39,883 nucleotides of DNA, taken from positions 97,668 to 137,550 of the forward strand of contig NHHW01000008.1 of assembly GCA_002172185.1 (NCBI GenBank), written 5' to 3'. Numbering within the stretch: position 1 is the stretch's first letter; the number at the start of each line of letters is the position of its first letter. Below are positions 9,708 to 31,573 of the stretch, in pieces. The notes beneath the pieces are model-generated. The model did not search any database. It was not told the DNA's origin and was given only the letters and a program-made list of their open reading frames with translations. Position numbers and translations under genes: made by a program. The stretch is from Euryarchaeota archaeon TMED173. Its GTDB lineage: Archaea > Thermoplasmatota > Poseidoniia > Poseidoniales > Thalassarchaeaceae.

Positions 9708-12700
9708 TCATCTCCTTCTGAGGTCTTCAGAGTACATGTAGGCCTTTCCTCGGCCCCCTAACCCTTTTTTCTTCTTGTTTGCGATGTACAGCACTGCCAT
9801 TGTACCTAGTACTATTGCTGGTACGCCGAACATTAGAATAGTCAACCATAACGGTCTCTCGATTTTCTCACAAGCTGTCTGTCCGGTCAACTCCTGTTCA
9901 TAGCCAGATGGACACTTCATTTGTTCAACAGCACCTGCCTCTTCAACGAAATGACCTGGATCCGATGGTTGACAAACCGTAGAAGATGAAGAAGGCTGGA
10001 AGGAACCGGGTTGACATGGAGACTGAGAAGTCGATCCTGAGGAAGGAGCAAAACTTCCAGGATCGGCGGGGAGGCACTCTTCCTGGCCTTCTTCTGGTTG
10101 AAAGTTACCTGGACGGCAGCTTGTCTGAGAAAGAGCGCCTTCCTGAGGAACATGATGACCGGGCATAGCCTGATTGCAAGAGCTCTGTCCCCCGTAAGAT
10201 TGGAATTCACCCTTCGAGCACGGAGTCTCTGAGGAGGCCCCACTTTCAGGAACAAAATTACCCGGGGCCGCTAGTTCACAATCTGTTCCTCCGGGTGAAT
10301 CGGAAAAGGTACCTGGATCGCAAGGAGTTTGTGAGGTAGCTCCAGATTGATTGACAAAATTTCCTGGAGAAGACTGGATACAAGAGTTCTGATTTTCCGG
10401 TTTGTATGTGCCTGGGGAGCATGGGATGGTAGAGGTTCCATCGGGACTGGAGACTTCCCCTGCTGGAGCGTCTAAGCAACCTTCAGTTCCTGCTTCTCCC
10501 TGAAATTGGCCCTCGGGGCATGGCATCTGTCCTGCGGCTCCATCCAAATCTACGTAGTGTCCTGGTTCTGCGTCAATGCACTCACCATTTCCTGGGTCTG
10601 GCTGAAATGTTCCTGGTAAACAGGGAGACTGTGAGGTCGCACCATCCAATGAGAAGTTTCCGGGATCTGTCTGTAGGCACGAGACTTGGCCAGACAGAGG
10701 TTGAAAGTTGCCTGGAGGACATGGATTCTGGTTTACGGACGCCTCTGAGTCTGTGTAGTTTCCAGGTGATGTCAGTAGACATTCCCCCTGAGCTGATGAG
10801 GGTTGATATTCTCCCGGCTGACAAGGAGATTGCGCTTGCTGCTGTACCCCGCTGACGAAATATCCGGGTGATGCTTCTGTACATTGGGATTGTCCGGTTT
10901 GCGAGGAGAATGTGCCTGGATGGCACTGTTCTTGTGAAGTTGAGCCTTGGTTAGGTGCTTGGAAGCCTATTTCCACCTCTAAACATGTTATTTGTCCTGC
11001 GAGATTCTGGTAGGTTCCTGGATCGCATGCAGTCTGATTTCCGGATGCTCCACCTGAAACGAAATGCCCTGGAGAGGCTTCTAGGCATAATGTTGAGTTA
11101 GTCTGATTTTGATAGCTACCCGGAGAGCAAGCTGCTTGCCTAGAAGCTCCCGATTCTGCTACAAAATATCCAATTGATGCTGGCAAACAAAAGGCCCCTC
11201 CATAGTTTTGTTGGAATGTTCCAGGTGAGCATTCTGTCTGATCCGTCCAAGACTCACCACTAACGAAGTGACCAGGGGTAGCAAGGATGCACGAATCTTG
11301 ACCTGTGAGGGGCTGAAATTGTCCAATTTCACATGGAATCTGGTCGTATGGTGGGTTTCCATCACTGAAATATCCAGGATTTGTCTCCAGACAGGTTCCA
11401 TTTGTAGAGTATGTTCCTGATGGACACCCATTTGGAAAGGGGTCGAATATGGAAATTACTCCGTCACCATCGTGATCACGCTCAGCTAGCATTGCATACT
11501 CATTCGGACCTAGATCAACAAACGAAGGGGAGATGCTGACGAGTCCCTCGCCAATTCCAAGTTGGCCCTCTGAGTTGTCTCCCCAACAGTAAACAGATGC
11601 ATTGGACATAATTGCACAAGTATGTTGGGTACCTGCGGAAATTGTGGAAACAACTGATCCTTCTGGCATAGAAACCCTCGTTGGGGTACTTCTGTTGGTT
11701 GTAGAATCGTCCCCTAGTTGGCCCAATTCATTACCCCCCCAACAGAATGCGTCACCGTTATCCAAAATTGCACATGCATGGGATTGTCCTACTGAGATAG
11801 ATACGGCTACTCTCCCTTCAGGTAAAATTGCGAATCTAGAAACAGTCGAAGAGTGGTTTACAAGTGTACCATCTCCAAATTGTCCTCCATCATTTCTCCC
11901 CCAGCAAAGGACGCTTCCGTTATCCAGTATCCCACATGTTGTCTGAAATCCAACATCTACAGCGACTAAACTACGATTCTGAGGAATCAATGAAATCAGA
12001 GTAGGTGATGACTTATTTTCTGTAGTTCCATCACCGAGCTGTGCACCTTGGTTGTCCCCCCAGCACATTCCATCTCCATTATCCAGGATAGCACACCCAT
12101 AGTCCTGCCCATATGATACAGAGATAGCAGATCGATTCGAGGGTAGGTCAATTTGATGAGGAATTGATATATTTCCTTGGCTGGTATTACCTATCCCTAC
12201 CTGCCCTTGGGGATCGTTGTCCCCCCAGCACCAAAGGGAAAAATCATCCATTATTGCACATGAGGTATGCAAACCGGCTGCTGATTGGATCGCAGTAAGT
12301 CCATTCGGCATTGTTGTAGGGAATGGTGTTGAGTGCCATCCTCCGGAGACATTGTCACCGACCTGACCATTCCAATCATTGCCCCAACACTTCAATGAAT
12401 AGTCATCCATTACCGCGCAAGAGTGATGCCCATAAGATGCAGTCTCAATCGCGCTAGAGTTTCCTTGCTCGTCATCAAGCAATACCTCAGTGGGGATGAA
12501 GGAATTCCCATTTATCTGCCCATCTCCCAAGTAACCAGTACTAGGGGATACTCCCCTCTGGCCCCAGCACTTCATAGAATTGTCAAATATGATTACGCAG
12601 GTGTATGAGAATGAAGCAGTAATTGTTGATTGAGAATATATCGAACCAATTGTGGAACCAGGATAATTCATAGATCCCAAAGTGAATTGGGCATTATTGT

Positions 12701-12824
12701 GATTCAATTCTGATTGATTATCTCCATGTATTAAATTGGAGGATGACAGTCCGACTAGCAATATTACCAATATGAATGGAATTACCATATTTCCGGCTCG
12801 GTTTTCTTTCATGCCCCTTGACAT
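9708..12824 (-). CDS. Large surface protein: RCC1 propeller plus Cys-rich GCC2/GCC3-like repeats
   Basis: 1038 residues, predicted secreted and membrane-anchored. A signal peptide lies at about residues 13-32. Residues about 75-430 hold seven RCC1-type repeats, each with a CAI.DN....CWG core followed by N..GQ.GDG, enough for one closed seven-bladed propeller. A short acidic linker, DHDGDGVISIFDPFPNG, resembles a calcium-binding thrombospondin type 3 or EF-hand-like loop. Residues about 465-985 hold 16 repeats of roughly 33 residues of the form C.PG.FQ....G...C....PG.FV, like GCC2/GCC3 (ephrin-receptor-like) modules, with two cysteines per unit that could pair. A transmembrane helix (about 992-1012) and a Lys/Arg-rich tail end the protein. 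The likely role is adhesion or recognition at the cell surface; ligand unknown. In-frame later ATG codons at residues 5 and 13 are alternative starts. Confidence 0.85.
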   Translation of the reverse strand: MSRGMKENRAGNMVIPFILVILLVGLSSSNLIHGDNQSELNHNNAQFTLGSMNYPGSTIGSIYSQSTITASFSYTCVIIFDNSMKCWGQRGVSPSTGYLGDGQINGNSFIPTEVLLDDEQGNSSAIETASYGHHSCAVMDDYSLKCWGNDWNGQVGDNVSGGWHSTPFPTTMPNGLTAIQSAAGLHTSCAIMDDFSLWCWGDNDPQGQVGIGNTSQGNISIPHQIDLPSNRSAISVSYGQDYGCAILDNGDGMCWGDNQGAQLGDGTTENKSSPTLISLIPQNRSLVAVDVGFQTTCGILDNGSVLCWGRNDGGQFGDGTLVNHSSTVSRFAILPEGRVAVSISVGQSHACAILDNGDAFCWGGNELGQLGDDSTTNRSTPTRVSMPEGSVVSTISAGTQHTCAIMSNASVYCWGDNSEGQLGIGEGLVSISPSFVDLGPNEYAMLAERDHDGDGVISIFDPFPNGCPSGTYSTNGTCLETNPGYFSDGNPPYDQIPCEIGQFQPLTGQDSCILATPGHFVSGESWTDQTECSPGTFQQNYGGAFCLPASIGYFVAESGASRQAACSPGSYQNQTNSTLCLEASPGHFVSGGASGNQTACDPGTYQNLAGQITCLEVEIGFQAPNQGSTSQEQCHPGTFSSQTGQSQCTEASPGYFVSGVQQQAQSPCQPGEYQPSSAQGECLLTSPGNYTDSEASVNQNPCPPGNFQPLSGQVSCLQTDPGNFSLDGATSQSPCLPGTFQPDPGNGECIDAEPGHYVDLDGAAGQMPCPEGQFQGEAGTEGCLDAPAGEVSSPDGTSTIPCSPGTYKPENQNSCIQSSPGNFVNQSGATSQTPCDPGTFSDSPGGTDCELAAPGNFVPESGASSETPCSKGEFQSYGGQSSCNQAMPGHHVPQEGALSQTSCRPGNFQPEEGQEECLPADPGSFAPSSGSTSQSPCQPGSFQPSSSSTVCQPSDPGHFVEEAGAVEQMKCPSGYEQELTGQTACEKIERPLWLTILMFGVPAIVLGTMAVLYIANKKKKGLGGRGKAYMYSEDLRRR
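9869..11430 (-). repeat. 16 degenerate coding repeats (GCC2/GCC3-like, about 33 codons each)
   Basis: Inside the surface-protein gene. Units share a core of C.PGTFQP..GQ..C followed by .PG.FV..GA.SQ. They are diverged at DNA level, so this is an old protein-level expansion, not a recent tandem duplication. Confidence 0.8.
11545..12640 (-). repeat. Seven RCC1-type coding repeats
   Basis: Seven copies of a CWG-containing repeat of about 50 codons (for example CAILDNGDAFCWGGN and CGILDNGSVLCWGRN). The number matches a full seven-bladed beta-propeller. Each repeat carries two cysteines, unusual for intracellular RCC1 proteins and fitting an extracellular location. Confidence 0.8.
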
Positions 12825-24587: not shown

Positions 24588-26390
24588 CTATGCGGTGGAT
24601 TGGAACAGTCCTACGGACTGTTCGAGAATCCACGAACTAACGAAATTGGCGATTCCCGCTAACCACATCATCTGTATCATTTGGCCGAGAACTAGTGTTG
24701 TTCCACCGCCACGAATCCGTGCAGTAATCAAGCCAAGTGCGAATATGGTTACTACAATCAAGAAAGACCCTATTAGTTGGAACACAGCTATGTTCTCGTC
24801 TACTCCCGTGGTCTCGCCGAGCACTGGTAGAGCGATGTCAACTCCTGCAGATGCTGTTCCGGCTTCTCCAGTACTATCAACGAGACCAGCAGCGACCTGG
24901 GCAATCGTCTCACCGAGACCTGAGATAATCGAAGTAGTGATGTTCAGAGCGATGATCATTGCGATAAGAAGACCGTATGAAACACTCCTCATCACATTTG
25001 CAGAGATCTGTCTCCTCTGCCTAAGTCCTAGTAGGGTAGTGGTACTCTGGGAAACCTGATCTCCGACCAGACCAGCCTCACCGGTTGAGGAGGAGCCTTC
25101 GATGAAGACCCTGGTGAATCTAGATACCATCATCGAGTTATTGTCTGCAGCAAACCAGTTCCAAGAGTAATCGCTGTTTATTCTCATTGAGAGCCTCTTT
25201 TCTAGATTCATAATTGATTCGTCCAATGCTCCGAAGTCGATTCCAGATAGAGCCTTGACCATTGCGCTAGGCTCTTGAGCCCTTGCTTGGGCGGTCCCAC
25301 CGAAGGCTCTAATGAACTCGGGGAAAGCCTCGTCCCTCCTCCTTACTCTCGTCTCCTCTTGCCCTGTGAGCAGGGCTGGAGCCATGAGTGGTGACATCAT
25401 AACTGCGATTAGCAGTAGTCCGATGTAGTTCCAATTGTCTATGAGGAAGCCAACTCCGTACCAAGCGATGAAGATTATGAAGAGAAGAAACATTATCGCA
25501 CCTAGAATAGCAGATATGATCCAAGCCCTTCTGATTTCTACGGCTTGTTGGGTATTGTATCCGTGTTTAGCGAACAGATCCTCGTGAGGGATAACAAGGG
25601 TGAACAAGTACCATGCACCGAGTTGAAGCAATGCGAATAGTGCGCCGGTTAGAAGGACCCACCTTGACCTGATGAGGATATCTATCCAGTCATCGGACTC
25701 GCCTCCAACTTGGAATAGGATAAGGTGAAGCCCTGATACCACCATCAGAAGTAGACCGGTAGTTGTGAGGGAAACGAACGTCTCTCGAAGTGTATCCAGC
25801 TGCTCTAGTCTAGCATCATAAATAGTGGTGAAAGCTTGTTCGAAGGTCTCGTTCTCGCTCACGAAAAACTCACCTATTGGCTGTCCGACCTCCACCGAGA
25901 AGGCCATCCTGTCTAGGAAATCACTCCAGATCGCCGAGGGACTCTGTTTTCCGACAATTCTAGCTGCGTCTGGAAGATTTGTGTGCCATTTTGATACCAG
26001 GGTCTCTATTGCTTGGATCTCTTTGGCTAGGGCTCCATAGTCGCCCATCTCCTTCAGTACGTCGAACATTCCCTTCTCAGCCGACTCGCCCATAGAGAGA
26101 ATTCCCATTCTAGTCATGAACATGTGCATATCTTGCTCAATCTGAATCGCCTCTGCAGCAACTTGTGTTACGGGATATGCCAAGGTAGCAACAAGACCCA
26201 AAATCGGGAATGCGAGTATTAGCGATAGTGCCCCCAGGGTGCCGACTTCTGCGTTTACTAGAAACCAGACCGTTAATCCGGCCACGAGGCCCATGAGTGT
26301 GGCTGGAAGAGAAAAAAGTAGTAGATATCGTGAGAAGGGCATGCCAAGACGTATTTTAGCAATCTGCCACGTGGAAAACTTGTTCTCCAT
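24588..26390 (-). CDS. flaJ: Archaellum membrane platform protein FlaJ/ArlJ
   Basis: Polytopic membrane protein that couples the FlaI ATPase to filament assembly and rotation. About 600 residues with two T2SSF-like halves and membrane-helix clusters near residues 22-75, 205-250, 285-330 and at the C terminus. A cytoplasmic charged loop includes EETRVRRRDEAFPEFIRAFG, a typical T2SSF-like signature. I start it at ATG 26390 because GGTGAT lies exactly four bases upstream and overlaps the flaI stop; the GTG at 26399 is inside that Shine-Dalgarno. Between flaI and flaK in the operon. Confidence 0.93.
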   Translation of the reverse strand: MENKFSTWQIAKIRLGMPFSRYLLLFSLPATLMGLVAGLTVWFLVNAEVGTLGALSLILAFPILGLVATLAYPVTQVAAEAIQIEQDMHMFMTRMGILSMGESAEKGMFDVLKEMGDYGALAKEIQAIETLVSKWHTNLPDAARIVGKQSPSAIWSDFLDRMAFSVEVGQPIGEFFVSENETFEQAFTTIYDARLEQLDTLRETFVSLTTTGLLLMVVSGLHLILFQVGGESDDWIDILIRSRWVLLTGALFALLQLGAWYLFTLVIPHEDLFAKHGYNTQQAVEIRRAWIISAILGAIMFLLFIIFIAWYGVGFLIDNWNYIGLLLIAVMMSPLMAPALLTGQEETRVRRRDEAFPEFIRAFGGTAQARAQEPSAMVKALSGIDFGALDESIMNLEKRLSMRINSDYSWNWFAADNNSMMVSRFTRVFIEGSSSTGEAGLVGDQVSQSTTTLLGLRQRRQISANVMRSVSYGLLIAMIIALNITTSIISGLGETIAQVAAGLVDSTGEAGTASAGVDIALPVLGETTGVDENIAVFQLIGSFLIVVTIFALGLITARIRGGGTTLVLGQMIQMMWLAGIANFVSSWILEQSVGLFQSTA

Positions 26391-26394
26391 TTTT

Positions 26395-26400
26395 ATCACC
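26395..26400 (-). promoter_or_regulatory. Shine-Dalgarno GGTGAT for flaJ
   Basis: GGTGAT, complementary to the archaeal 16S rRNA 3' end, ends four bases before ATG 26390 and overlaps the flaI TAG stop by one base. It decides the flaJ start and implies coupled translation. Confidence 0.7.
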
Positions 26401-28145
26401 TAGTGATTTATTCCCGTCCATGTCTCTATTGAACTGGCGAATCTGTCCCAACCTTCCTTGTAGTATATGTCAAGAAGATCGTAGACGTCGTCGTAGTGAG
26501 TGAGATCACGATCACACATGATTTGGATAGCGTCTGTTCTTCGTTCCAATTCGTCATAGATGTCTCGCTTACTCCTGAAACCCATCCTAGGAGCGATCTT
26601 GTTTTCGAGCATATCCGACTGGAACATCCCCCTGAAGTAGACCACATCAGCAACAGGGTCCCACTCGAACATGTTCCTTGTCAGAATACCATCCGCCGTC
26701 TTATCGAATCCAATAACCTCGCTAACACCTGTGATCCTTCGAGCTATTCCGCCACCTGGAGCTTCGACCACCTCTTGGAAGATAGCGAAGTTCAGGTTAT
26801 CAAAGAACCTGGCTGGAACGTTGATTGGGTCTCCTGTGAACCTCTGAATTAGTTTGACGATGTTTGATGCGTGGAAGGTCCCAACCACAGGGTGTCCTGT
26901 CTGCATGGCTTGGAATGCGATTGCGCCCTCTACGCCCCTTATTTCTCCTATGATGATGTATCTTGGCCTTGATCTAAGGGCGGCTTTGAGAAGATCAAAC
27001 ATTTCTACCCTAGAGTCCTCGTTCTTGGAGTCTCGTGTGATCAGTCTTTGCCAAATTGGGTGTGCTACCTTCACTTCAGGCGTGTCTTCGGCTGTGTAAA
27101 TCTTGACGTTGTGGTCTATGAAGGGTAGGACAGCGTTTAGAGTAGTGGTTTTCCCAGAGGCGGTCTCTCCAGAGACCAGCATGGACATTCCACTTTCCAA
27201 TCCCAGCCAAATATATGCTGCCATTTGTGCAGAAAGCGTCTTCCATTTGATTAGCTGGATGATTGAGATCGTCTCCTCTGCGAACTTTCTTATTGTGAAA
27301 GATGAGCCTTGGATTGAAACGTCGTCGCTGTAGATTATGTTAATTCTTGAACCGTCAAGAAGAGCCCCATCGACAATAGGCTTGCTGTCTGAAACAGGTC
27401 TACCGATACGCTCTGACATTGACCTTAGGTAGCCGGTAAGAAGCTCCTGATCTTTGAATGCGATGTTTGATGTAAGCATTGGGAATACCTTGTGATCCAT
27501 GTGAATCTGGCTCATTCCTATGGAGTGGATATCCTCCAGCATCTCATCTGCGAGTAGAGTCTCCAATGGTCCATTGTTCACTAGATCTCTTACGACTACG
27601 TACTTCAGTCTGGTTAGTTGGTCTTCGGTAACCTTTAATTTGGACTCTCCGAAACCCAGTAGCTCCCTAGCTTGATTGACTACCGGATTAGCCAGAAGAG
27701 AGACAGAAGAGGTGGTAGTCATCGCATCCATCATCTCGTGAATCATCTCAATGAATTCCTCGTCATTTTCGAATCTCTCTTTCTGGGGTGCGTCTCTGAG
27801 AAGCCTCTCAACAATGAGGTCCCTCATCTCCTCTTCTTCGCCGGTGATTGTTGGCTCAAGACCGTACCAGAATGTGTTACCTGCCCCATCTGCACCTTCT
27901 GGAGGGGAGTAAACGTGAGCGAAGCAAGGAGGTTTGGTTGAATAAATCAGGTTTCTAGGGGATACGTTCTTTGCATCTCTGTCCAGTGGCCCATAGTATA
28001 TCGGCCTAGATCCATGCTTGGCTTCGAAGTCCTCGACCCATTCGCGGATGTGTGGGAATTCTGCCATAAGCCCACCAAGATCCCCAGGTTGGATCTTGAA
28101 TTCGGGCTCTTTCGGCTTATCGTCGGCTTCTTGTTCGGTAACCAT
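26400..28145 (-). CDS. flaI: Archaellum motor ATPase FlaI/ArlI
   Basis: Hexameric secretion ATPase that powers assembly and rotation of the archaellum. About 581 residues from ATG 28145. Walker A is SGETASGKTTTLNA (about 325-338), the Walker B region is RPRYIIIGEIRGVEG (about 395-408), and the His box is TGHPVVGTFHASN (about 418). The N-terminal region HMDHKVFPMLTSNIAF and the GSRINIIYSDDVSIQGSSF block match the FlaI/GspE N-terminal domain. The TTG at 28187 would overlap flaH by 26 bases; ATG 28145 with AGGAG ten bases upstream, 17 bases after the flaH stop, is more likely. Confidence 0.96.
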   Translation of the reverse strand: MVTEQEADDKPKEPEFKIQPGDLGGLMAEFPHIREWVEDFEAKHGSRPIYYGPLDRDAKNVSPRNLIYSTKPPCFAHVYSPPEGADGAGNTFWYGLEPTITGEEEEMRDLIVERLLRDAPQKERFENDEEFIEMIHEMMDAMTTTSSVSLLANPVVNQARELLGFGESKLKVTEDQLTRLKYVVVRDLVNNGPLETLLADEMLEDIHSIGMSQIHMDHKVFPMLTSNIAFKDQELLTGYLRSMSERIGRPVSDSKPIVDGALLDGSRINIIYSDDVSIQGSSFTIRKFAEETISIIQLIKWKTLSAQMAAYIWLGLESGMSMLVSGETASGKTTTLNAVLPFIDHNVKIYTAEDTPEVKVAHPIWQRLITRDSKNEDSRVEMFDLLKAALRSRPRYIIIGEIRGVEGAIAFQAMQTGHPVVGTFHASNIVKLIQRFTGDPINVPARFFDNLNFAIFQEVVEAPGGGIARRITGVSEVIGFDKTADGILTRNMFEWDPVADVVYFRGMFQSDMLENKIAPRMGFRSKRDIYDELERRTDAIQIMCDRDLTHYDDVYDLLDIYYKEGWDRFASSIETWTGINH

Positions 28146-28161
28146 TTGAATCCAACTCCTA

Positions 28162-28908
28162 TCATGCAACTGCCGTAATGTCGACAATGAAACCCATCTC
28201 TGGCATAACTTTCCACCCTATTCGCTCGGTTATTGGCCCGGCTGCCCTGAGGAATCTTGTGACCCCAACTGTCCTGACTAACTGTCCCCCCACCACTGAT
28301 GTCATCATGTCCAACACCACCTCCGCGGAGTTCTTCATATCCCTGAGGAGAGTCTCATCCATCTCTTCTGGATCTATGGTGAGGATTACAGTTCTCCCCT
28401 CGGAAGTGAATTTTCTTAGCTGTGAAATGAGGGCTTTCCCTCCAATTTCATCGGGCATCAACTCTGAGGCCCTATCGATGACTATTACCTCTGCGTCCTT
28501 GGATGGCTGAGCATCTAGTATATCCATCAGGTCAACCTTCTCGTCTGTTTCTTCCGCTAATACACCGAAGCTGGAGATTAGGTGGAAGTTTCCCTCGTCG
28601 ATCCTCTTGTCCATGTAGTATCCGATACTAGATACCTGCTCCAACCATCCTCTGGTGGTTAATTCCGTGGTGTAGAGTGCGACTCTGACGTCGTTTGCTG
28701 TCAAGCCGAATGACATTCTCTGGCCCATGATGCTCTTGCCAGATCCAATGCCGCCACAGACTAGCATTAGGGCCCTGTTAGGTATGGCAGTCCCCATACT
28801 CTGGCCCAGGCTATCCTGTATTACACCAAATTCGAAGTTGTCTACATTAGGCTGGGACAAGTCTGACACCCTCCGTGTTTGAGTATGATCCTGCATATTG
28901 CTCTGCAT
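28162..28908 (-). CDS. flaH: Archaellum KaiC-like ATP-binding protein FlaH/ArlH
   Basis: RecA/KaiC-fold cytoplasmic protein that binds FlaI and FlaJ in the archaellum motor. 248 residues. Walker A is VCGGIGSGKSIMGQ (about 50-60) and Walker B is EVIVIDRASEL (about 138-148). The residues before the P-loop (FEFGVIQDSLGQSM, then IPNRALML) match the usual FlaH entry strand, so the coding sequence must begin upstream of ATG 28797. That forces an overlap with flaG of 62 bases (ATG 28908) or 50 bases (ATG 28896). Neither start has a strong Shine-Dalgarno. Confidence 0.9.
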   Translation of the reverse strand: MQSNMQDHTQTRRVSDLSQPNVDNFEFGVIQDSLGQSMGTAIPNRALMLVCGGIGSGKSIMGQRMSFGLTANDVRVALYTTELTTRGWLEQVSSIGYYMDKRIDEGNFHLISSFGVLAEETDEKVDLMDILDAQPSKDAEVIVIDRASELMPDEIGGKALISQLRKFTSEGRTVILTIDPEEMDETLLRDMKNSAEVVLDMMTSVVGGQLVRTVGVTRFLRAAGPITERIGWKVMPEMGFIVDITAVA

Positions 28909-29329
28909 CAGAAATCACAGTAAAAGATAGTGAGGCGTCCGTGTCTACAGTGTAGTCGTGAGGAGATGATGTTTGGTCTTCGATATTGAATTCGATGATC
29001 TCTCCTGGTAGCCACTGTGTGGGACTACCCACCGATGATACCGTCATAGAATGCCCCGCAAGGAACACTCCCACAGTGTTTACGTCCAAGAAGGTGTCTC
29101 CCGAGTTCTGTAGGAAGATGGTCGTGGTCTTACCGGTGTTGTCCCATTGTATATTGCTCGGGTCGTTGACCATTGATGCGCGTGTTCTAGTCAGTTCTGA
29201 GCTCTGCTCCCCCCTATCATCTATTGCCTCACTCATGTCTTCCCATGCTCCAAGAAGTACTCCCGAAACAAGGGCTGCCACTATTAGGCCCGCACTTAGC
29301 ATTACCATTTCAGAGGGACCATTTGTCAT
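28847..29329 (-). CDS. flaG: Archaellum stator-type protein FlaG/ArlG
   Basis: Pilin-like surface protein with an N-terminal hydrophobic helix (residues about 8-28) and a beta-sandwich domain outside the membrane. In characterised archaella FlaG and FlaF form the stator complex. The segment SSELTRTRASMVNDPSNIQW followed by IFLQNSGDTFLDV matches the FlaG pattern of LxTdixIINDPsN and YVKNTGsxtL. 160 residues, normal length. ATG 29329 has AGGTGAG three bases upstream. The 3' end overlaps flaH. Confidence 0.85.
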   Translation of the reverse strand: MTNGPSEMVMLSAGLIVAALVSGVLLGAWEDMSEAIDDRGEQSSELTRTRASMVNDPSNIQWDNTGKTTTIFLQNSGDTFLDVNTVGVFLAGHSMTVSSVGSPTQWLPGEIIEFNIEDQTSSPHDYTVDTDASLSFTVISDAEQYAGSYSNTEGVRLVPA

Positions 29330-29341: not shown

Positions 29342-30058
29342 TCATGCATTCACTGTAATCGCGCTGTTATAATCGTATATCGCTAGCCACGCCCTGTTTG
29401 GATCATCGCCGACAGCGAATCCATGGGAGTCTGAATTGAGAGTGAAGGGATCTGAAGAAAGGCTCTCTCCCGGGAACAGGTATAGATTGCCAGAGGAGTA
29501 GTGATCCGTGAAATAGAACGGTTTGCCCTGGGTATTGTCCCCAGTTGTGTCAGATAGCGTGATTAGGATGTGAGAGAGTTCGACTGTGTCTGATCCTGTG
29601 TTCTCTATGGTTATCGTAATCTTCTCGTGAATTGAATCGATGTCGACTATGGCGCCGGATCCGGTTGCACATCCTGTTATTTCGACTCTATCGGTTTGAG
29701 CGTATCCGCTTCCAGGATCGGAGATGGATACCGATGTGACTGCTCCGGCAGAGGCGATCACATCAACAGTCAGCCCAATACCGGTCCCCACGATTGCCGT
29801 AGTAGAGCAAGCTGAGCCGGTGTCCGGGTAGTCTGAGCCGTCTTCTCCGGCTCCTTCTCCAAGAGAGATGGTTTCGGCCGGACCCGTTGACTCGGTCTGA
29901 TCTGTAACTGAGGTGAGTGAGACCTCGGGATTGGGTAGATTGTACTCGGAGTTCCTGATCGAATCGTCAATACTTTCTATCATTGAAACCGTAGCCATGC
30001 CGAAAAGCATGATGAACACGGTTCCTACCACCATAGTGCCTACACTCGACCCAGCCAT
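29342..30058 (-). CDS. flaF: Archaellum stator-type protein FlaF/ArlF with an inserted Gly-rich module
   Basis: 238 residues. The N-terminal hydrophobic helix (about 5-28) and the C-terminal strand text EKITITIENTGSDTVELSH match FlaF, which binds the S-layer in characterised archaella. The protein is longer than usual FlaF because residues about 60-133 are inserted between VSLTSVTDQ and EKITITIEN. The inserted part contains GSGYAQTDRVEITGCATGSG, a pattern seen in virus tail and fibre proteins (GSGYxxGDxVxIxGxGxGA). Cys84 and Cys120 flank it and could form a disulfide. ATG 30058 is preceded by GGGGGAGA. Assignment to FlaF rests on gene order as well as the short beta pattern. Confidence 0.75.
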   Translation of the reverse strand: MAGSSVGTMVVGTVFIMLFGMATVSMIESIDDSIRNSEYNLPNPEVSLTSVTDQTESTGPAETISLGEGAGEDGSDYPDTGSACSTTAIVGTGIGLTVDVIASAGAVTSVSISDPGSGYAQTDRVEITGCATGSGAIVDIDSIHEKITITIENTGSDTVELSHILITLSDTTGDNTQGKPFYFTDHYSSGNLYLFPGESLSSDPFTLNSDSHGFAVGDDPNRAWLAIYDYNSAITVNA

Positions 30059-30070
30059 CTAATCTCCCCC

Positions 30071-30895
30071 CTAGGGAGTCCCCTGGGCCCTCCAAGCCTC
30101 TATCATGGCAGCGAATGTCAGTAGAGTCCTGTTATTCACTGCAGGTGCTCCTTCTGAGGGTTCCCCTGGCTCTGCTAGTGCGGCTATCGAGCCCAATGAC
30201 TTCTCTTCTGCTGCCGTAATGACTCCTGATTTGGAAGCAGACTTCAGGAAGTTCACAGTATCTGCCCCATTCATATGATCTAGTAGGAGTGCGGCTATTT
30301 TGGTAGGATCGACCTGCGGTCCCTGTAGAAGTGCTTCGGCCTCACCACTCTTGAGGAATGGGTTGACTGCTAGGGACTGGGCCTCGTAGAGATCGAGGAG
30401 ATTTGGGCCACCGGGCATTCCCCCCGCGAGGGGTGCTGCTCCTACCTGAGGAGCTCCTTCCACAGGCTTGCTTGTTACCTCTCCATCGTCTCCCACTGTG
30501 TGGATTACATCCTGAGCTCCTCCGCCAGCTGCTGGAGCAGCTGCGGCTGAGATTGACTCTGCTGCGAGTTTTGCTGTTTGCTGCTGTGTAAGCTTCAGGT
30601 TGGCCTCCATCATGTCCAAAGCGGTCTCCAATCTCTCGAATCTCTCCTTAACCAAGTCGACGAGCTCTGGAATCTGCTCGGATCCCTGTCCGCCTCCCTG
30701 AGGATCACCTAGGACACCGACACGTGTTCCTGCAGGGGCGAATAGCCATGCTTCTAGGTCGGTGGGCCTGAACTCGGTCGGAATGTCAACATGCTCAACA
30801 GACAGCCTCGCGACCTTGTCAAGTCGGCTAGTCATTCCAGGATCGGCACCCTCCAAGGTGGATCCTCCGAATGGGAGTTTGTCGAGCAGCCCCAT
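30071..30895 (-). CDS. Archaellum-cluster coiled-coil protein in the flaC/D/E position
   Basis: 274 residues, cytoplasmic (no signal peptide). Residues about 75-110 (IPELVDLVKERFERLETAL) form a coiled coil. An Ala/Gly/Pro-rich linker follows, then a helical C-terminal part: VDPTKIAALLLDHMNGADTV and FLKSASKSGVITAAEEKSL. That end faintly resembles the FlaD/FlaE pattern of LLxWLxxL then YYxxIGWISEEV, but the key Trp residues are absent. It sits between flaB and flaF, where flaC/D/E lie in other euryarchaea, so I infer it is a divergent cytosolic motor-ring or switch protein that may link to chemotaxis. GAGGA six bases before ATG 30895 supports the start. No confident family. Confidence 0.6.
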   Translation of the reverse strand: MGLLDKLPFGGSTLEGADPGMTSRLDKVARLSVEHVDIPTEFRPTDLEAWLFAPAGTRVGVLGDPQGGGQGSEQIPELVDLVKERFERLETALDMMEANLKLTQQQTAKLAAESISAAAAPAAGGGAQDVIHTVGDDGEVTSKPVEGAPQVGAAPLAGGMPGGPNLLDLYEAQSLAVNPFLKSGEAEALLQGPQVDPTKIAALLLDHMNGADTVNFLKSASKSGVITAAEEKSLGSIAALAEPGEPSEGAPAVNNRTLLTFAAMIEAWRAQGTP

Positions 30896-30923: not shown

Positions 30924-31532
30924 TCAGACTAGGGACTTCCCTACTGTGGTCGAGACGACCTCTAGCTCAGCCTCGGTCTCTCCACCGCCCTCGACGGTGA
31001 CGAGAAGCTGTAGCTTCCCTCCTACATTTGGTTGGCAGTTTGCAAGGGTGATTGGGATCTTGAAGGTGTCACCAGATTCCAGTGAGTCGCTGGAAAAGGC
31101 AGTAGCGGCGTTTCCGTCTCCGTCTGAGCCGTCGAGCATCGATGCGCCTGCAGCGTCGATGGTGTTGGTATCGATAACCAGATCGTCTCCGGCTGCGTTG
31201 GCACAGGTGATGAAGTAAGTAACAAGGTTGGATGTGACCTCATCGGCACCGGCTGCCAGCTGAGCGATTACCAGGATGCTAGCGAGCGCATCTGGGTCCG
31301 CTCCAGTGGTCGTCTTCACGAATGCGTCCACTAGGTTGATTTTACCGGAGATCTCGCCCCTGGTATCATCGGCTGTCTTCTCAGCTCTCTGCTGTAGCTC
31401 CTCAGCGGTCGTGATGATTATTGTCGACGCTACCGCGGCCACAAGGATTAGTGCGATGAAAACAATCATCGCTCCGATACCTATCGAACCTTCTTCTCTT
31501 TCTCTTTGTGCTAGTTGGTAATCTTCGCTCAT
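30924..31532 (-). CDS. flaB: Archaellin, filament subunit FlaB/ArlB
   Basis: Structural subunit of the archaellum, 202 residues. The short charged leader MSEDYQLAQREREEG ends in Gly at the class III signal-peptide cleavage site, followed by SIGIGAMIVFIALILVAAVA, the near-invariant archaellin N-terminal helix with Gly at +3. Mature protein about 187 residues, ending in a beta-rich domain with two cysteines (ITCANAA and LANCQPN). I start at ATG 31532 because AGGTGA lies five bases upstream; a longer reading to 31568 lacks this. Only one archaellin is present, while many euryarchaea have several. It has its own promoter upstream. Confidence 0.95.
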   Translation of the reverse strand: MSEDYQLAQREREEGSIGIGAMIVFIALILVAAVASTIIITTAEELQQRAEKTADDTRGEISGKINLVDAFVKTTTGADPDALASILVIAQLAAGADEVTSNLVTYFITCANAAGDDLVIDTNTIDAAGASMLDGSDGDGNAATAFSSDSLESGDTFKIPITLANCQPNVGGKLQLLVTVEGGGETEAELEVVSTTVGKSLV

Positions 31533-31537
31533 AGCGT

Positions 31538-31543
31538 TCACCT
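31538..31543 (-). promoter_or_regulatory. Shine-Dalgarno AGGTGA for flaB
   Basis: AGGTGA ends five bases before ATG 31532. It fixes the archaellin start and removes a 12-residue false extension. Confidence 0.7.
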
Positions 31544-31573
31544 GTAGTTCCCGTGGTAAACTAATCACTTATG

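Follow-up and report, generated by a model that had tools for sequence, protein, structure and literature searches.

The archaellum locus and its stator gene

The window, a stretch of 39,883 nucleotides from the archaeon TMED173 (a genome that is 45% complete), contains an archaellum operon whose genes were assigned as follows:

24588..26399, minus strand: ArlJ (NCBIfam ArlJ/FlaJ, E 2.8e-96, below the cut-off)
26400..28187, minus strand: ArlI motor ATPase (NCBIfam archaellum motor FlaI, 660.7 bits, exceeding the cut-off of 550)
28162..28908, minus strand: ArlH (NCBIfam ArlH, E 3.1e-46, below the cut-off)
28847..29329, minus strand: FlaG/ArlG (NCBIfam ArlG, E 4.9e-18, below the cut-off; Pfam Arch_flagellin, E 6.1e-13)
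29342..30058, minus strand: FlaF/ArlF, 238 residues, called P0001 here (open reading frame, operon position and alignment with insert-free FlaFs)
30071..30895, minus strand: ArlD/E-like gene (by position; weak match to Pfam FlaC_arch, E 0.095)
30924..31568, minus strand: archaellin (Pfam Arch_flagellin, E 7.3e-20)

P0001 is flanked by the archaellin and the ArlD/E-like gene, which had no NCBIfam match at E <= 0.01, on one side and by ArlG-ArlH-ArlI-ArlJ on the other. The window thus shows the gene order archaellin ... ArlF-ArlG-ArlH-ArlI-ArlJ, and FlaF-FlaG-ArlH is found in the fetched loci of relatives too. P0001 is identified as ArlF (FlaF) because of this operon position and because its N- and C-parts can be aligned with short, insert-free FlaFs from sister genera. 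It shares with ArlF (NCBIfam NF052590) the position before ArlG-H-I-J, an N-terminal hydrophobic helix and a C-part that aligns with weakly matching insert-free homologues; it differs by an addition of some 86 residues ahead of the second strand, and in a search of NCBIfam it matched neither this model nor any other. The short FlaFs L046, L040 and L043 match the ArlF model with E values of 1.2e-6, 1.9e-4 and 4.7e-5, all below the curated cut-off. This cut-off, 110 bits, was reached by none of the six FlaFs scanned (five from the order and one from an outgroup), the best being the outgroup protein L126 with 67.3, and it therefore says little for this phylum.

In what follows, g1 denotes the genus of the window, f1 its family (g1, g6, g7, g3, g5 and others) and f2 the sister family.

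A two-part module inserted in ArlF

Within the stator gene, the following features are distinguished:

29954..30046, minus strand: hydrophobic helix at the N-terminus, residues 5-35 (from the hydrophobicity of the sequence; a single-sequence model of low confidence places a helix at 6-35)
29633..29890, minus strand: inserted module, about residues 57-142, with two GxxY half-repeats (alignment with insert-free and insert-bearing FlaFs; model of residues 48-150)
29807..29809, minus strand: codon of C84, proposed disulfide partner (cysteine pair here in 16 of 16 g1 FlaFs over 180 residues)
29669..29671, minus strand: codon of C130, proposed disulfide partner (the same 16 of 16)

The initial annotation had described a phage-type module of about 50 residues between two FlaF strands, containing the motif GSGYAQTDRVEITGCATGSG and bracketed by two cysteines. 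The motif is present at the position where it had been placed, and alignment with the insert-free FlaFs of sister genera confirms a module at this point, between the first two strands of the beta-rich part. The size given (29663-29815, residues 82-132 of P0001) was too small, since the insert is about 86 residues long by alignment, and the two cysteines, C84 and C130, sit inside the module, one in each half. The half-repeats carry the GxxY motifs G74..Y77 and G116..Y119. Every one of the 15 full-length FlaFs of the window genus, that of the window included, has both GxxY motifs and both cysteines. This recurrence, together with the E values of the phage tblastn (2e-7 for the whole of P0001 and 2e-5 for the insert, each the best among the matches listed) and of the search against viral protein profiles (PHROGs, 1.3e-4 to 1.5e-4), shows that the insert is not a product of chance. 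A Pfam search found no family for it.

When residues 48-150 were modelled with AlphaFold2, using 29 further rows (one relative and 28 viral sequences), the insert was predicted to be all beta (pLDDT 90.1, pTM 0.79). The insert might instead be part of the normal FlaF sandwich, as the initial annotation had allowed; both the insert-free homologues and this confident standalone model speak against it, while the full-length single-sequence model of P0001, in which the helix and strands do appear, is poor (pLDDT 41). A Foldseek search of BFVD with the insert model returned 16 viral matches at E <= 1e-3 (TMq 0.46-0.77), eight of which are named: cyanophages or a Mediterranean phage clone account for four of these, and uncultured Caudovirales for the other four. 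The fold match is not independent of the sequence match, given the 28 viral rows in the alignment of the model. Foldseek against PDB gave no match at E <= 1e-3 with the same model, and in a VIA structure search, the best Z was 4.0, with EF-Tu tied with chains of a phage baseplate complex. Among profile searches of PDB, that of the long FlaFs matches tailspike (28lx, 8ck1) at E 5.7e-6; the module profile A4 reaches a best E of only 0.19, with the T4 gp18 tail sheath first; and the short-FlaF profile A2 finds no FlaF structure, its rows including an antifreeze-protein repeat (E 1.1e-8) and flagellin (E 0.052).

The cysteines follow a pattern of their own. Beyond residue 30, the number of cysteines is even (0, 2 or 4) in each of the 70 FlaFs over 180 residues, and 30 of these proteins contain cysteines there: all 16 in g1 (spacing 43-48), seven of 14 in g11 (26 or 27), four of six in g12 (4), one of two in g16 and two of two in g19. 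None of the short FlaFs has more than one cysteine in total. These counts across relatives are not independent cases; the location of the pairs at differing places from genus to genus argues for disulfides formed separately in an outer compartment. In the window protein, C84 and C130 would form such a disulfide between the two halves of the module. The g12 pair, present in L099, L100, L102 and L103 and absent in L098 and L101, is a CxxxC in the second half-repeat.

Kinship with phage modules and with giant surface-type proteins

Among the closest known counterparts of the insert are the GxxY/GSGY modules of T4-like marine phages, found in PHROGs 438, 460, 697, 4406, 5342 and 6005, whose members include baseplate wedge, head closure, structural and tail fibre proteins. 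Both half-repeats align with these modules, the E values against PHROGs go down to 5.3e-8 among nine g1 inserts, and the predicted folds are alike. The proposal that the motif is of a type known from marine virus particles is therefore borne out, with clear viral similarity in both sequence and predicted fold. The FlaF insert differs from the phage modules in residing in a cellular motor protein and in being present as one module per protein; in addition, its cysteine pair is absent from most of the viral rows, as judged by eye. A search of open-licence PubMed Central found no published GSGYT phage repeat. A separate viral contig (L227:1632-2513) encodes a 293 residue protein rich in GxGY repeats.

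The same module also occurs in the archaea themselves. Of 311 genomes in the order, 110 have matches to a profile of the g1 inserts, and the matches listed include, besides FlaF itself, many open frames near 2400 residues (in g1, g6, g10, g18 and g8 of f1) or 2700 residues (in f2), and some of other sizes. Ten of these giant loci were fetched, several with frames cut by the fetch or by a contig end, and each contains one to three overlapping module matches with E values of about 2e-8 to 2e-14. The single giant whose whole sequence was inspected begins with a signal-like segment and, at its C-terminal end, has a hydrophobic stretch and an acidic tail. The giants share the module with FlaF and differ in lying outside the archaellum operon and in occurring also in genera where no ArlH was found. 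A general pairing between the FlaF module and giants was considered and rejected, as g6 has giants together with a short FlaF, and giants occur in g10, g18 and g8, which are not represented among the 198 genomes with ArlH. Module-bearing open frames of about 2400-2900 residues (L115-L124) were seen in many genomes, and one open frame in G258 (G258:C62) is 7292 residues long.

These relationships bear on the idea, raised in the initial annotation, of gene exchange with viruses. In its strongest form, which we regard as rather unlikely, this idea holds that the module was acquired straight from a marine virus and retained, with its variation reflecting repeated viral transfers. In a phage collection searched at E <= 10, g1 inserts match 405 and 355 records and the single f2 insert tried matches one, as a viral source for g1 would lead one to expect; of the 405 records, however, 390 are below 60% identity and 15 are at 60-80%, and no near-identical viral copy of the insert was found in the viral searches. 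Similarly, a viral scan seeded with the module of a g1 giant gave 130 viral relatives, of which 80 were kept, but with g1 FlaF inserts as queries only 3 and 1 viral loci were returned, and with an f2 insert none.

The scores of individual inserts point both ways as well. In 11 of the 15 g1 inserts, viral pieces outscore giant pieces and also everything else from outside g1, with L015 as an exception in which an f2 insert is ahead of both in a near tie; giants lead for the other four, including the window's own insert, for which the best giant reaches 41.3 bits against 36.7 for the best viral piece. For the g1 profile, the median is 44.3 bits against viral pieces (44 pieces), 33.0 against giant pieces (14) and 18.5 against f2 inserts (47), whereas the f2 profile gives 37.7 for giant, 16.1 for viral and 14.5 for g1 pieces. 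The viral set is larger than the giant set (44 versus 14 pieces) and was collected using the module of a g1 giant as query, which biases its scores upwards; the phage collection is free of that bias. Since the module is carried by the archaea's own giant proteins, a viral donor is not needed. Thus, the kinship with phage modules stands, while the transfer from a virus is not established.

Distribution and number of gains

A search with P0001 of 60 relatives gave a match at E <= 1e-3 in 29. Of the other 27 g1 genomes, 14 contain a full FlaF, two contain one cut by a contig end (in one of these, L018, only the second part of the insert remains) and 11 contain none; with the window's included, the insert is present in 17 of the 17 g1 FlaFs found, two of them cut. 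Of 318 genomes in the order, 198 gave an ArlH. Outside g1, 80 regions upstream of it were fetched and a FlaF was extracted from 79, the exception (L075) lacking a FlaG of the expected length. The alignment across relatives that had been suggested as a check reveals that the module is not an order-wide feature, being absent in 24 of these 79 FlaFs. These 24 are short (131-147 residues) and all belong to f1 (six in g6, seven in g7, nine in g3 and two in g5). The remaining 55 are from f2: 50, in seven genera, contain the insert (212-229 residues in total length), three are cut by contig ends (g22 and g16) and two contain another insert (g19). In the f2 inserts, the second half is frequently without a full GxxY motif. 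The two g19 proteins (L110 and L111) are 365-368 residues long, with a larger, different insert and four cysteines beyond residue 30. In 20 outgroup regions from the phylum, a FlaF of 129-171 residues precedes FlaG in 16, as judged by eye, and not in the other four; none of the 16 contains the insert. The short FlaF looks like the ancestral form.

The number of gains was considered on an operon tree built from ArlH (N-terminal piece), the ArlD/E-like protein and ArlG, with 62 of 108 rows, thinned by genus and rooted with outgroups, all of which lack the ArlD/E-like protein. Within f1 (SH-aLRT/bootstrap 92.6/95), g1 groups with g6 (100/100), then with g7 (100/99) and then with g3/g5; support for f2 is 86.7/80. 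On this tree the insert requires either two gains or one gain and three losses, and separate gains in g1 and in f2 would be the simplest account. Two gains are also backed by the insert scores, because 14 of the 15 g1 inserts score better against viral or giant pieces than against f2 inserts. A tree of FlaG only (109 rows) leaves the base of the order unresolved and draws g1 apart.

Hypervariability and replacement of the module in the window genus

The insert is much less conserved than its surroundings in g1, with a median protein identity of 38% compared to 67% and 64% in the flanks. The most telling pair is L004 (G005) and L013 (G027), whose proteins are 95% identical in the N-part, 85% in the C-part and 34% in the insert. 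At the DNA level, windows of 15 codons are 98, 93, 89 and, at the edge, 67% identical before the insert, 33, 40, 40, 43, 48 and 33% within it, and 76, 89, 96, 91, 73, 93 and 89% after it. The neighbouring DNA is 89.5% identical over 714 bases upstream and 92.5% over 1200 bases downstream (ungapped columns), with a dip in ArlH. The G005 ArlH, downstream of L004, was matched in two pieces, probably due to an assembly frameshift. In this pair of close species, the module has thus been replaced almost entirely. A second case involves L015, which is a sister of L016 by the downstream genes (91.1%), yet is only 26-67% identical to it over a stretch that starts near codon 46 and takes in the insert and most of the C-domain; over the insert and most of the C-domain, L015 is instead 80-89% identical to L011, with which it shares only 69.9% downstream.

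As a control for swapping, pairs were binned by flank identity. In g1, insert identity is 41% in the one pair with flanks at 85-90%, 50-82% in three pairs at 80-85%, two of which we read as the exchanged L015 pairs, a median of 48% in five pairs at 75-80%, and 93-96% in two pairs above 95%. In g14, it is 90% at 85-90% (nine pairs) and 77% at 75-80% (60 pairs), and in g11-g15, it is 88% at 85-90% (seven pairs), 67% at 80-85% (one pair), 64% at 75-80% (one pair) and a median of 54% at 60-70% (30 pairs). In close pairs of f2, the insert is in step with the flanks, whereas in g1 it is not; the contrast is weaker at wider distances, and the strong hypervariability in g1 is based on few close pairs (one at 85-90% and five at 75-80%), with no swap in the two pairs above 95%. 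An AU topology test was dropped as proof of recombination, since the g1 insert rejects the flank tree (delta lnL 198) but so do the control genera (86 and 36).

Could such divergence arise without any exchange? The module might be an ancestral feature of the order that was lost in several genera and persists as a neutral spacer under relaxed constraint. The occurrence of the insert at the same loop in both families and its low conservation relative to the flanks are compatible with a spacer of this kind, which is nonetheless unlikely: it requires the one gain and three losses in place of two gains, it does not account for viral or giant pieces outscoring every f2 insert for 14 of 15 g1 inserts, nor for the two cysteines and two GxxY motifs preserved in 15 of 15, and drift does not give the abrupt drop of identity at the module edges in L004 and L013.

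All sequences compared here are from metagenome-assembled genomes (MAGs), in which strain chimeras are possible. In 11 of 20 g1 genomes, the contig breaks off no more than 2.5 kb upstream of ArlH, against 2.0 expected; the corresponding figures are 16 of 50 against 8.2 in f2 (plus-strand rows among the matches listed) and three of 15 against 3.1 in the genera with short FlaFs, the contig counts being rounded and the distance in G005 approximate throughout this test. The g1 genomes with a contig end near FlaF are G007, G018, G020, G012, G024, G017, G022, G016, G015, G025 and G005 (L228-L232, L003-L018). The excess in g1 suggests strain-level variation around FlaF, but f2 too has more contig ends than expected. 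That the swapping is merely an artefact of MAG contigs joining flanks and modules from different strains is very unlikely, for although g1 contigs often end here, as expected at the strain-variable sites where misjoins are likeliest, misjoining cannot create the divergent alleles, each of which keeps the reading frame and has the two cysteines and the two GxxY motifs, the L013 module lies on a contig of 140.7 kb, and alleles are repeated in independent MAGs (L010, L011 and L015 are of one type, with 85-92% protein identity).

Proposed role of the module

Near-complete difference of the module between close species with near-identical neighbouring sequence suggests that it is an outward-facing domain. 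In excerpts of two earlier studies, ArlF is described as capping ArlG filaments and touching the S-layer, with binding of the S-layer and of ArlG known for Sulfolobus (PMC8667602, PMC12448462). The excerpt of the latter also describes the Thermoplasmatales, which belong to the same phylum as the window archaeon, as lacking an S-layer, reports only minor differences and no obviously distinct binding motif among the ArlF homologues compared, and presents the anchoring of the archaellum in archaea of this phylum without an S-layer as an open question. The ArlF of the Thermoplasmatales thus poses the same question, namely what ArlF anchors to. The archaellum genes of Ca. Poseidoniales, which occur in the absence of chemotaxis genes, have been interpreted as adhesive, according to an excerpt of PMC6461757. 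No published account of the Marine Group II archaellum FlaF or of an insertion domain in Poseidonia ArlF was found in open-licence PubMed Central; what is new here is the hypervariability of the insert in g1.

In view of these findings, we propose that the g1 ArlF is a stator protein with an accessory extracytoplasmic all-beta domain, whose most likely job is a variable contact with the envelope, a reading to which we give about an even chance. A module of two GxxY half-repeats would have been spliced in ahead of the second beta-strand of ArlF, presumably by separate captures in g1 and in f2, and its halves would be pinned together by a disulfide. The module would extend ArlF outwards at the outer tip of the ArlG/ArlF stator, where it may touch a variable outside partner, either the envelope layer of the species itself or else a virus or a grazer. 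Divergent alleles may then be maintained, and passed on through recombination within the conserved flanking sequence. A more far-reaching version, which we offer tentatively as one possibility, is that the archaellum stator contains an exchangeable 'variable region', a virion-type cassette that is swapped between species, its diversity being maintained by viruses or envelope partners that make contact at the base of the archaellum.

The presence of an additional surface-type domain on ArlF in two families of one order indicates a contact open to testing. Replacement of alleles in this domain, if true, would also offer a clue to the selective forces acting on archaellum parts in the ocean.

Elsewhere in the window (9708-12824, minus strand) lies a gene for a secreted-looking protein of 1038 residues, with two types of internal repeat and a C-terminal hydrophobic stretch.
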